The notes under the pieces are model-generated. The model was not told the origin of the DNA, searched no databases, and was given only the letters and a program-made list of their open reading frames with translations. From a virus, in IMG/VR virus record IMGVR_UViG_3300042561_001110, positions 1 through 42,083 of that record: a stretch of DNA of 42,083 nt. One strand, 5' to 3'. Shown here in pieces: positions 37,727 to 41,823 of the stretch. Position 1 is the first letter of the stretch. Each line of letters opens with the position of its first letter. Made by a program: the position numbers and the translations under genes.

Positions 37727-37932
37727 ATTGTCAATTTTCCAATAAATCGGAAACCATTGACACTTTCAGTAGGTAAAAAGGTAGGTTCGAATCCCACCTC
37801 CTCCGCTCTTTTGAGTGTCAATGCAAGAGTGTGCAAAATGCCCGCAAAGGTAGACTGGGCGGGGGTTGGCGGCGATTGAAGGCGATTGCAAAAAATTGGA
37901 AGAATTTGCAAAAGTGTCAATGCATGTCAATG
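37727..37932. repeat. Integrase arm-type sites around attP
   Basis: Copies of AGTGTCAATG or close variants lie at 37727-37736 (ATTGTCAATT), 37755-37764 (reverse strand, exact), 37814-37823 (exact), 37913-37922 (exact) and 37923-37932 (CATGTCAATG). The last two are in direct 10-bp tandem, just before the integrase ATG at 37943. They bracket the tRNA-like core and look like arm-type integrase or excisionase sites; those next to the start codon may also autoregulate the integrase. Confidence 0.7.
37784..37806 (+). other. attP core matching a tRNA 3' end
   Basis: GGTTCGAATCCCACCTCCTCCGC reads as a T-loop and 3' acceptor strand. TTCGAAT is the T-loop, CCCAC the 3' T-stem strand, CTCCTCC the acceptor strand and G the discriminator base, which is the identity of tRNA-Ser. 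There is no 5' tRNA half, and one T-stem pair is mismatched just outside the core. The site lies 137 bases upstream of the integrase start. The prophage is expected to integrate into and restore a host tRNA-Ser gene. Confidence 0.8.
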
Positions 37933-37942
37933 ATGTGTCAGT

Positions 37943-38953
37943 ATGAATTTACAGGCTCTGATTCCACGGTTTGACCGAAAGTTGGCGCGGTGGGTGATCG
38001 ACATCCCGAAGGCGCTGAATGGCGGAAAGCGTCGGCGGATGTTTTTCAAGGACGCGGCGGATGCTAACAAGGCTCACGCGGAGCTTGTTTTTTCGCTGGC
38101 TCATACGGGCGAGATTCCGTCGAAGGCGGAGGATGGCGAGACGGTGGCTCATTTTGTGGCGGCGTTCCTTGCCAAAAAATCTGTGGAGGTGGAGCCGGTC
38201 ACGCTGCGCCAACTTAAGTGGGGCCTGCTTAAATTTTCGGATGCGCATGGCAAGAAGCGGCCGGAGGACTTGGATTCGGTGGCGATGCGCAGGTGGGTGG
38301 ACAAGCTGCCGCTCACGACTCGCGGGAGGTTCAATGTTTTTGCAGTGTGCCGAGATTTTTTCTCGTCAACTGCCATGCGGGAGAGGGTGAGCCATAATCC
38401 GTTTTCTGACGCACCGCCGAAGAAGGATAAGGGGTCGCGCTTGCCTATCCTCACGGTGACGCAGATGAGGGCTCTGCTGGAGCATGAGTGGCCGGAATGG
38501 TTCCGTGCTTGGTTGGTTGCGGGAGCATTTGCGGGCCTTCGGACGCGGGAGATTTTTTCGATTCCGGCATCGGCGATTGACTTTGAATATGACGAGATCG
38601 TGATTCGCCATGAGGATGCCAAGCAGGGCGAGGCGGCGAGGCCGCGCTCTGCGACGATCTACGAGGCGTTGCGGCGGCACATGCCTCGCCGAGCTGCGGA
38701 CAAGCCGCTGGTGGATGGGTGGAGCAAGAAACGCTGGAAGCCTGTGATCCGCGAAGCCTGCGAAGTAATCGGCGTGGATCCGCTGGAATGGCCGGCGAAC
38801 TGCCTGCGGCATTCTTTTGCGAGCTACCACCTGGCGCACTTCAAGGACACGGTGACGACGGCGTTTCTCATGGGCACATCGCCGCGCCTCTTATACGAGA
38901 CTTATGCCAATCAAGTATCGAGGCGCGACGCGGCGAAATGGTGGGACCTGTAG
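37943..38953 (+). CDS. int: Tyrosine recombinase (phage integrase)
   Basis: A 336-residue integrase. The N-terminal part (residues 1-60) includes RKLARWVIDIPKAL and the SAM-like core-binding domain spans about 70-160. Catalytic residues are Arg200 (AGLRTREIF), Arg289 in the box CLRHSFASYHLA, and the Tyr321 nucleophile in LLYETYANQV. The His of the HxxR motif is replaced (NCLR) and the usual GH[ST] before the tyrosine is shortened to MGTSP. This LRHSFASYHLA style and the DAAKWW ending are familiar from Verrucomicrobiota/Planctomycetota integrases. It recombines the adjacent attP with a host tRNA gene. It converges on the lipoprotein gene with a one-base gap. Confidence 0.88.
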   Translation: MNLQALIPRFDRKLARWVIDIPKALNGGKRRRMFFKDAADANKAHAELVFSLAHTGEIPSKAEDGETVAHFVAAFLAKKSVEVEPVTLRQLKWGLLKFSDAHGKKRPEDLDSVAMRRWVDKLPLTTRGRFNVFAVCRDFFSSTAMRERVSHNPFSDAPPKKDKGSRLPILTVTQMRALLEHEWPEWFRAWLVAGAFAGLRTREIFSIPASAIDFEYDEIVIRHEDAKQGEAARPRSATIYEALRRHMPRRAADKPLVDGWSKKRWKPVIREACEVIGVDPLEWPANCLRHSFASYHLAHFKDTVTTAFLMGTSPRLLYETYANQVSRRDAAKWWDL

Positions 38954-38954
38954 C

Positions 38955-39350
38955 TTACCGCTGCGTGAGGGCGAGTGGCTTGGGATTTGGGTAGAGGTGG
39001 GCGTGCGGGTGGATGAAGGCGACTTTTTTTGGGGGGATGGCGGTGGTAAAGAAATGTTGTTCCTGGGCGGTGCCGTCCCAGAAGCGGGCTCGGATGATTT
39101 GGACGGGATTGCCGTTGAGGGGCCAGCCTCCTTGGTAGCAGCGCTTGAGCTCAAGGGTGCAGGGGGTAATGCCTACCACATCGCCGTTGAGGTCGACCAT
39201 GGCGCCGTAGGGGAGGGTGTGGATTTCGACGGTGCGGTCGCTGAACTTGGCTTCCCAGGCTTTTTTGCTGGCCTCAAGGTCGATGGTGCTTTTAGTGGCG
39301 CAGCCGCTCAGGAGCAGGGCGAGGGCGCACAGAATAAATAGAGTTTTCAT
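38955..39350 (-). CDS. Lipoprotein with PEGA-like fold, co-transcribed with the repressor
   Basis: A 131-residue lipoprotein. The signal peptide MKTLFILCALALLLSGC ends with lipobox LSGC (Cys17). The mature part contains VEIHTLPYGAMVDLNGDVVG and ITPCTLELKR, a pattern like PEGA domains (surface beta modules). The ATG at 39350 follows the RHH repressor stop by seven bases, so both are on one leftward transcript likely active in the prophage. Such lipoproteins often change the host surface or block superinfecting phages. An upstream in-frame start at 39425 lies inside the repressor gene and is less likely. Confidence 0.75.
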   Translation of the reverse strand: MKTLFILCALALLLSGCATKSTIDLEASKKAWEAKFSDRTVEIHTLPYGAMVDLNGDVVGITPCTLELKRCYQGGWPLNGNPVQIIRARFWDGTAQEQHFFTTAIPPKKVAFIHPHAHLYPNPKPLALTQR

Positions 39351-39357
39351 GGCGAGG

Positions 39358-39690
39358 TCAGGTCGATGACTTGCGCCGTCCAGCCTTCTGGTAGCGGGCC
39401 GTCGTAGCTGTTGATAATCCACCATCTAAGGTCTCTGTGGAGGGCCGGATCAAGTTGTTCTGGGGCGTATGGGGGTCTTCATTGAGCCGGTAGCGGGGCA
39501 TGTCGGGCATGGCTTGGCCGAGTTCTTCGCGTTTTTTCATTTCCTCAATCGCATCAGCAATGATGGCGCTTACAGAGGTTTTCATGCGGCGATCTTTAGC
39601 GTTGAGGCTGGCTTCTTTTTCTTTGACCCAAGACGCGAGGTCTGGCGGCAGCGTGATGGTGATTCGAGAGAATTTTTCTTTGGCGCTCAT
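39358..39690 (-). CDS. Ribbon-helix-helix repressor (candidate lysogeny regulator)
   Basis: A 110-residue protein. Residues 8-55 form a ribbon-helix-helix: FSRITITLPPDLASWVKEKE, then VSAIIADAIEEMKKR. The ribbon (RITITL) reads DNA as a dimer. The C-terminal 50 residues are a Pro/Arg-rich tail. It is transcribed leftward with the lipoprotein gene. Its start codon abuts an ATCATATC half-site, and the same half-site recurs before the facing RHH gene. No Shine-Dalgarno sequence is visible. It probably acts as the prophage repressor, like Arc/Mnt of P22. Which RHH protein keeps lysogeny is inferred from direction. Confidence 0.75.
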   Translation of the reverse strand: MSAKEKFSRITITLPPDLASWVKEKEASLNAKDRRMKTSVSAIIADAIEEMKKREELGQAMPDMPRYRLNEDPHTPQNNLIRPSTETLDGGLSTATTARYQKAGRRKSST

Positions 39691-39716
39691 ATCATATCAG
39701 TAACACCGGATATGAA
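39691..39716. promoter_or_regulatory. Operator half-sites before the leftward repressor
   Basis: ATCATATC (39691-39698) and GATATGAA (39709-39716) are inverted copies, one exact and one 7/8, of the half-site in the palindromes at 39841-39867. The ten bases CTGATATGAT occur exactly here (reverse strand, 39691-39700) and at 39839-39848. They abut the repressor ATG, so binding would shut off repressor transcription or translation. Confidence 0.65.
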
Positions 39717-39840
39717 AAAAGCAAACGACCAGTAAAATTTTTTTTCGCCCGCAGACTTAGTGTTTATGGGCGTGTCAAGTGTTTTTTTGATGTGGGGTGA
39801 TCTACTTATTGACCCGTTTTCGGAATTTTTCTTGCACGCT

Positions 39841-39867
39841 GATATGATCGATCATATCGATATGATC
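39841..39867. promoter_or_regulatory. Overlapping palindromic operators before the rightward RHH gene
   Basis: Two perfect 18-bp palindromes overlap: GATATGATCGATCATATC (39841-39858) and GATCATATCGATATGATC (39850-39867). They supply three GATATGAT half-sites in alternating orientation. They end one base before the ATG at 39869. TATGAT at 39843-39848 could be the -10 of the early promoter, but no good -35 is visible. The site is likely bound by one or both RHH proteins and controls the early rightward operon. Confidence 0.75.
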
Positions 39868-39868
39868 C

Positions 39869-40042
39869 ATGCACACTGCATACGAGAGAACGAGCGTAAG
39901 TCTTCCTTCAAACCTCATGGAGTATCTGAAGGAAAAAAGTGAAGTGCTTGGCACACCTGTCAGCAGACTGATTGCGGGAGCCCTTCGGGAAAAGATGGCC
40001 AGCGAGGCCAAAAGCAAAACCAAGGGGAGGGCGTCGAAATGA
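39869..40042 (+). CDS. Ribbon-helix-helix regulator (Arc/CopG-like), early operon
   Basis: A 57-residue protein, about the size of Arc. It has RTSVSLPSNLMEYLKEKSEV followed by TPVSRLIAGALREKM and a basic tail: a complete ribbon-helix-helix. The ATG at 39869 is needed to keep the ribbon strand; a later ATG at 39917 would remove it. The gene is immediately downstream of the overlapping palindromes and begins the early operon. It probably counteracts the leftward RHH repressor, as a Cro-like antirepressor or autoregulator. The next gene overlaps by four bases. Confidence 0.75.
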   Translation: MHTAYERTSVSLPSNLMEYLKEKSEVLGTPVSRLIAGALREKMASEAKSKTKGRASK

Positions 40043-40212
40043 AGCCGGGATATTTGAGACCCGAGGAAGCGGCCCAATACCTCTCAGTCTCACTCAGCAC
40101 TATCTACAACAAGAAGCGGGCCGGGCTTCTCAAATTCTACAAATTTGGCGGCTCAACCTTGCTCAAGGTGAGCGAACTCGACGCGGCTGTTGAGAAGGGG
40201 GTCCAGGAATGA
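40039..40212 (+). CDS. Excisionase/HTH_17-like DNA-binding protein
   Basis: A 57-residue protein with the HTH_17 pattern: YLRPEEAAQYLSVSLSTIYN, then KRAGLLKFYKFGG as wing, then a closing helix (KVSELDAAVEKG). This fold is used by excisionases and AlpA-like regulators. It lies in the early operon just after the RHH gene. It may direct excision with the integrase or act as an early regulator. It overlaps both neighbours by four bases. Confidence 0.78.
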   Translation: MKPGYLRPEEAAQYLSVSLSTIYNKKRAGLLKFYKFGGSTLLKVSELDAAVEKGVQE

Positions 40213-40890: not shown

Positions 40891-41823
40891 ATGAAACTGA
40901 ACATAGTAACAGGAAAACTACAGCGGGCCCAGCGGGTCTGCGTTTATGGGGTGGAGAGCGTTGGCAAAACTACGCTGGCCGCCAAGATGCCACAGCCGGT
41001 CTTTTTGGATGTGGAGAAGGGGACGGCGCACCTCGATGTGCCTCGCCAGGAGATCGGGACTTGGGCTGAGCTGCTGGAGGTGGTGCGGGAGCTGGCCTCG
41101 GGGAGCTATGGCTACAAGACGGTGGTGCTGGATTCCATCGACTGGGCGGAGCGCCTGTGTATCGAGGACTTGAAGGCGGAGAAGAAGATCAAGTCGCTGG
41201 AGGAGATTCCGTATGGCAAGGGCTTTACGATGGCCTCGGAGCGGATGGCTCGTTTTCTGAACGATCTGGATCGGCTCATCGATGCGGGAATCCATGTGGT
41301 GCTGATCGGTCATGCACAAGTCAAGCGGGTGGAGCCGCCTGATCAAGTGCAAGCCTACGACCGCTATGAGCTGAAGCTCATTAAGCAGACGGGGCCGCTG
41401 GTGAAGGAGTGGGTGGACCACCTGTTCTTCCTTAACTTCAAAACCCGCATCGTGGAGTCGGAATCTGGCAAGGCCAAGGGCCGAGGCGGCAAGGAGCGGG
41501 TGCTGTATACGACCCATACGGCGGCCTACGATGCGAAGACTCGCTCGGAGCTGGCGGATGAGTTGCCTCTGGACTATGCGAGCATTTCCTCGCTTTTCGG
41601 GCCGGTGAAGACTCCGGTGGCGGCTGCGGCTCAGGCTTATGCGGCGGCTCAACCTCTGGAGACTTACCTCGAACCCCATGAACAGGCTGTGAATGCCTGG
41701 CTCTTGGCTAAGGGCAAGATCACCGAGGGGCAGACTTGGCGGGATATGCCGCCAGCGCTGCGGGACCAGGTATCGGCGAGGCCGGAGGATTTCCTACAAG
41801 CGGTGGCGAAAGCGGCTGCGTGA
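40891..41823 (+). CDS. Sak4-like RecA-fold ATPase (AAA_24, phage nucleotide-binding protein)
   Basis: A 310-residue RecA-like ATPase. Walker A is VYGVESVGKTTLA with Lys26, followed by PVFLDVEKGTAHLD and a Walker B-like KTVVLDSIDWAE. Sak4-type proteins are phage single-strand annealing or strand-exchange recombinases and share this motif order. The C-terminal 70 residues form a small helical domain after an Ala-rich linker. The ATG at 40891 follows the membrane peptide stop by four bases. Together with the Cas4-like nuclease and SSB-like gene it forms a recombination module. It overlaps the next gene by four bases (GTGA). Confidence 0.82.
   Translation: MKLNIVTGKLQRAQRVCVYGVESVGKTTLAAKMPQPVFLDVEKGTAHLDVPRQEIGTWAELLEVVRELASGSYGYKTVVLDSIDWAERLCIEDLKAEKKIKSLEEIPYGKGFTMASERMARFLNDLDRLIDAGIHVVLIGHAQVKRVEPPDQVQAYDRYELKLIKQTGPLVKEWVDHLFFLNFKTRIVESESGKAKGRGGKERVLYTTHTAAYDAKTRSELADELPLDYASISSLFGPVKTPVAAAAQAYAAAQPLETYLEPHEQAVNAWLLAKGKITEGQTWRDMPPALRDQVSARPEDFLQAVAKAAA

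Follow-up and report, generated by a model that had tools for sequence, protein, structure and literature searches.

Can two ribbon-helix-helix (RHH) proteins stand in the place of a CI/Cro pair in a temperate phage? This question is raised by a 42,083-bp IMG/VR virus contig (the whole of this stretch is hereafter called the window), in which a preliminary description had noticed two divergent RHH genes around a gap of 178 bp. The coordinates of the genes and of the gap (39691-39868) agree with our own. We consider it quite probable that a temperate Verrucomicrobiota phage has its immunity (lysis-lysogeny) region here, that the region employs RHH regulators only, and that these regulators share their half-sites.

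The divergent gene pair and its repeated half-sites

The pair and the repeats around it are the following:

39358-39690, minus strand: left RHH gene, 110 aa, candidate lysogenic repressor
39869-40042, plus strand: right RHH gene, 57 aa, candidate for the Cro-like gene that opens the early operon
39691-39698 (minus), 39841-39848 (plus), 39851-39858 (minus) and 39859-39866 (plus): copies of GATATGAT
39691-39716: putative left operator, with half-sites at 39691-39698 (minus, exact), 39700-39707 (minus, GTAACACC) and 39709-39716 (plus, GATATGAA)
39841-39867: putative right operator, with half-sites at 39841-39848 (plus), 39851-39858 (minus) and 39859-39866 (plus)

Both proteins are predicted to be of the RHH (MetJ/Arc/CopG) type on the basis of a short strand followed by two helices and of profile and structure matches. 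Their Pfam RHH_1 scores, 19.6 bits for the right protein and 16.4 bits for the left, are just under the curated cut-off of 20.5. The right protein, with the strand RTSVSLP, matches an Arc-like repressor in PHROGs (E 0.001), and its AlphaFold2 model (pLDDT 83) is nearest to CopG, the top match, and to Arc according to Foldseek (probability 0.99). The model of the left protein is weaker (pLDDT 66; Foldseek ParD2, probability 0.63), and its best PDB profile match is CopG (E 0.35); it consists of the strand RITITLP, helices at residues 16-32 and 40-56, and then a low-confidence tail. This C-terminal tail (39358-39515), with the pattern ...PSxETxxGGxSTxxTxRxxKxG, is recognisable across the classes of relatives described below despite exchange of the RHH domain; it may serve recombination as a handle or have a function of its own.

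The sequence GATATGAT occurs exactly four times in the 42,083 bp, every time inside the gap, compared with 0.57 copies expected; a count of four is attained in one of 100 shuffles. Directly before the rightward gene, GATATGATCGATCATATC (39841-39858) and GATCATATCGATATGATC (39850-39867) form the two perfect 18-bp palindromes that had been described there, with 9 bp in common. No other perfect even palindrome in the whole 42-kb record reaches 14 bp, and a palindrome of at least 18 bp was present in 33 of 20,000 random 178-mers of local composition. The exact repeat previously noticed at both gap ends is likewise real: CTGATATGAT is an inverted repeat at 39691-39700 and 39839-39848 (10 nt, 100%). 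Each end of the gap thus carries about three half-sites, with centre spacings of 10 and 8 bp on the right and of 9 and 9 bp on the left. Dimers of the RHH superfamily place a two-stranded sheet in the major groove at half-sites repeated in this way. The left set is more degenerate than the right set, and the place equivalent to the left operator varies by class in the relatives. The earlier statement that inverted half-site copies precede the leftward gene holds for the exact copy at 39691-39698 but not for GATATGAA, which is a near copy in direct orientation; the weaker GTAACACC lies between these two. No Rfam family matched in the gap region. Exact matches to the palindromes in two viral contigs (L029 and L031) were inside unrelated coding sequence and were dismissed as chance.

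Relatives, the conserved core and joint change

By anchoring searches on the RHH proteins and on Sak4, we gathered 36 non-redundant cassettes with intergenic regions of 157-189 nt, and additional cassettes were obtained from metagenome-assembled genome (MAG) loci and L052 and by searching for the conserved core described below. A gap of this length together with a divergent RHH pair is present in all complete Sak4-anchored relatives with a recognised pair and in the MAG locus L116. In total, 92 non-redundant viral cassettes of 15 protein classes retain the divergent pair, and the sites of the classes include GATATGAT (this record), GGTATGAC, AGTAGCACC, TTACTACCAAG, GTGCACC, TTTGTGCACAAA and GTGAGCACAC. 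Sak4 relatives in genomes belong chiefly to Verrucomicrobiota MAGs, among which the loci L114-L116 bear the divergent pair. This virus family appears to infect Verrucomicrobiota and to exchange its switch as a cassette, of which there are at least 15 versions. Among isolated phages, no close DNA relatives and no protein relatives of the left RHH protein were found, and the right RHH protein had matches only at E values of 1 or worse.

Between the two operators, the alignment and the conservation profile reveal a core that is independent of the RHH class and is retained even when the left gene is missing:

39733-39782: class-independent core, consisting of an A-rich tract, CGCCCGC (39746-39752), 13 nt and ATGGGCGTGTCAA (39766-39778)
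39794-39814: degenerate copy of a central GGTGATCACC-like palindrome plus TTGACC (39809-39814)

Its consensus is an A/T tract, CGCCCGC, 13 nt and ATGCGG(A/G)TGTCAA. Read leftward, ATGGGCGTGTCAA gives TTGACA, and several relatives show GGGGTGATCACCCC in the alignment at the place of the central palindrome. The core may hold promoter elements (the leftward TTGACA and the GGTGATCACC-like palindrome) or be bound by a common factor, and it is possible that 39794-39814 is part of a rightward promoter. A sigma-70 scan returned TATGAT -10-like boxes within the operators; the start points that they imply fit the start codons poorly, and we claim no promoter from them.

A search with the core pattern recovered more than 100 viral contigs (for example, L150-L228), in which ordinary annotation gives only small hypothetical proteins. 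By reading, 103 distinct core contexts had RHH genes on both sides in 76 cases and on the right only in 14; six were cut by a contig end, and seven had no RHH gene, which is about the number expected by chance. In some relatives the core is thus accompanied by only one RHH protein, and the left repressor is not universal. Contexts without a left RHH gene include L068 (4755-5423), L192, L203, L246, L201, L160 and L268; in such variants the right RHH gene lies behind a palindrome (GGTTATAGTAACC, GGTGTCTGACACC or GGGTGCAATGCACC), and L068 apparently has two overlapping tandem RHH genes. In another class (L161, L167, L172, L194, L204 and L227), the right gene is preceded by three direct TTGGCAAGA repeats rather than by an inverted arrangement, and no left site was clearly identified.

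The sites at the two ends of the gap change together. Their similarity is higher within than across classes, a difference reached by 21 of 362,880 permutations for nine classes. With 15 classes, 92 cassettes and G+C-containing words only, the difference was reached by none of 300,000 permutations, in a data set where the left flanks of L161, L167, L150, L174 and L196, misextracted for want of a recognised start codon, add noise, chiefly in the L161 class. The proteins change along with the sites. The DNA-facing strand residues (positions 1, 3 and 5) match between partner proteins within classes (3 of 200,000 permutations), whereas the core-facing residues of the strand do not (149,565 of 200,000). 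At position 1, both proteins of the class of this record have Arg, and both have Lys in nearly all other classes; examples of matched residues are R/R for GATATGAT, G/G (position 3) for GTGCACC and R/R (position 5) for TTTGTGCACAAA. In Arc and Mnt, specificity is set by the N-terminal strand; Knight and Sauer (1989) are cited in PMC3325190. However, the helices also match between partners within cassettes (0 of 200,000), and the match of the strand residues is therefore a weaker sign of shared DNA binding. The similarity of the partners may derive from a common ancestor of both genes or from mutual contact. Joint change of the sites and matched DNA-facing residues lend indirect support to the reading of the same half-sites by both proteins.

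An alternative is that only one protein, most likely the left, binds these sites and represses both the early promoter and its own gene, and that the right protein has another target and is no analogue of Cro. Co-variation of the sites with both genes would also be expected if the partner were merely carried in the same cassette. However, the DNA-facing residues are matched in both partners, and some phages lack the left gene but have the core and a right RHH gene with a palindromic site, which suggests that the right protein binds there alone. We regard this alternative as unlikely, and we retain the reading in which both proteins use the half-sites.

A comparison of this record with the closely similar contig L056 gives an identity of 93-100% on both sides of the region and of 30-60% across 39520-40005. 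The breakpoints are inside both genes, just behind their RHH domains, and the replaced block contains an island of the core (39760-39789) with 83% identity. In addition, L044 and L045 have an identical left-protein tail and different RHH domains and sites. On this evidence, the RHH domains and the operators have been replaced as one block between near-identical phages, in the style of lambdoid phages.

The genomic setting and a proposed switch

The neighbours of the pair are as follows:

37755-37922: attP candidate, with a tRNA 3'-end-like core at 37780-37806, upstream of the integrase
37943-38953, plus strand: tyrosine integrase, convergent with the left operon (PHROG 1 integrase, 2.9e-22)
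38955-39350, minus strand: PEGA-domain lipoprotein gene just downstream of the left RHH gene; accessory, absent from some relatives
40039-40212, plus strand: HTH_17 (excisionase-like) gene, overlapping the end of the right RHH gene
40891-41823, plus strand: early gene for a Sak4-like annealing ATPase (PHROG 124, 2.6e-50)

The HTH_17 protein matches Pfam HTH_17 (1.3e-10) and PHROG 66, excisionase/regulator (3.6e-6), and small genes lie between it and the Sak4-like ATPase. If the record is a permuted circle, the early genes resume at its start with an exonuclease, a Holliday junction resolvase, a primase and a terminase. Because the integrase is on one side of the pair, and HTH_17 followed by the series Sak4, exonuclease, resolvase and primase is on the other, we read the position of the pair as that of CI/Cro. 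The tRNA 3'-end-like segment is surrounded by copies of CATTGACACT at 37755-37764, 37814-37823 and 37913-37922, and it is a probable attP with arm sites. The lipoprotein gene is probably co-transcribed with the left RHH gene, and its product is a candidate for a prophage-expressed surface or superinfection-exclusion protein. A weak PHROG match of the lipoprotein to Cor (E 0.0012) was also observed.

The preliminary description had named a different repressor elsewhere in the genome as evidence that would count against an RHH switch. We found no match to a CI-like HTH_3 or Peptidase_S24 protein in this record, and a search for HTH_3 in 14 relatives gave nothing over the cut-off and weak matches below it. 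One of these weak matches, in L148, was considered as another repressor and set aside as a ParB/RepB-like protein by eye.

The fold and the setting allow two other functions to be considered. According to the first, the left or the right RHH protein is the antitoxin of an autoregulated toxin-antitoxin module; RHH antitoxins (ParD and CopG-like) are the nearest folds to the left model, and such antitoxins bind palindromes upstream of their own gene. This function is extremely improbable for the present pair. The neighbours are lipoprotein, integrase, HTH_17 and replication genes, with no toxin family found by Pfam and PHROGs beside either RHH gene; one operator system is common to two divergent RHH genes, and the block is swapped like an immunity region. 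According to the second, the pair is not a lysogeny switch and provides plasmid-type copy-number or partition control (CopG/ParG-like) for an episomal phage. The fold of the right protein matches CopG best, and no integrated prophage was found among the viral contigs or at the MAG locus L116, a contig that was checked for integration and has phage tail genes left of its int. We nevertheless judge such control very unlikely in view of the integrase and attP-like site that adjoin the region, the lack of a replication initiator or ParA beside the pair, and the early recombination operon that comes after the right gene.

Under the preferred reading of a lysis-lysogeny switch, the left RHH protein would be the lysogenic repressor and would hold the early operon off in the prophage, where the lipoprotein would be co-expressed with it. 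The left protein probably has this role, given its position away from the early operon and a lipoprotein that possibly acts in the prophage. The right RHH protein would be the first early lytic product, a Cro-like counter-repressor that shuts the left operon in the lytic cycle. Both proteins would act through the same half-sites directly before both start codons, would cover the promoter and start-codon region, and would compete there. Since the two promoter-proximal operators each offer some three half-sites with one common sequence, both proteins could repress both promoters. The core contexts with a right RHH gene only, the lack of an integrated prophage among the loci above, the matching helices of the partners and the poor fit of the -10-like boxes count against this switch. 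A more elaborate form of this switch, in which a paralogous pair shares every operator, possibly as mixed dimers, the classes have orthogonal specificities and the fixed core binds a third factor, is rather doubtful.

If the reading is correct, the smallest DNA-binding fold is sufficient for a bistable switch of the CI/Cro type. Furthermore, about 15 natural protein-operator classes would be available for decoding RHH recognition, and the family would offer a system for studying how phages acquire new immunity specificities as well as a recognisable lysogeny marker for Verrucomicrobiota phages.

Comparison with known switches

In phage P22, mnt and arc are divergent with operators between them, and the operators of Arc and Mnt differ from each other. 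The immI region is secondary and governs the antirepressor; the primary switch, immC, relies on HTH proteins. Within immI, mnt, arc and sar control ant (PMC2629481). The present region is similar in having two RHH repressors in the immunity region of a temperate phage. However, its RHH pair occupies the CI/Cro position, searches for HTH_3 and S24 proteins found none, and both genes are preceded by the same half-site. Moreover, no Pfam or PHROG match to an antirepressor was found downstream of the right gene, which leads into the HTH_17 and Sak4 genes, and HTH_3 and S24 searches of this record gave no second, HTH-type immunity region.

Heteroimmune versions have been described for lambda and 434 (PMC6550527). 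As in lambdoid immunity regions, a divergent repressor and a first early gene have operators beside both promoters, which are putative here, and versions are replaced as a block, as seen here in sequence. The differences from cI/cro are the RHH rather than HTH fold, the lack of an S24 cleavage domain and the size of the proteins (57 and 110 aa); the class-independent core retained between the operators is also unlike lambdoid regions. The isolated Akkermansia phage Chambord (ON453894) has a divergent repressor, Sak4, exonuclease, Holliday junction resolvase and helicase in comparable order, but the divergent repressor at the syntenic position is a CI-type Peptidase_S24 protein. Together with the position of the pair, the missing HTH_3 and S24 matches and the block replacement, this S24 repressor supports the original proposal of an RHH pair in place of CI/Cro.

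The 55-aa RHH protein F55 of SSV1 keeps dormancy by occupying repeated sites that lie in early promoters and in its own promoter (PMC9608457); unlike the present phage, SSV1 is an archaeal virus with a single RHH regulator and no divergent RHH partner. Open-access full-text searches on RHH phage immunity repressors gave no CI/Cro-like RHH pair. RHH repressors of temperate viruses are thus already known from P22 Arc/Mnt and SSV1 F55, and the new elements are the many exchangeable specificities and the class-independent core between the operators. We rate the region as lambda-like in layout and P22 immI-like in fold, and as distinct from both in its position and its shared half-site.
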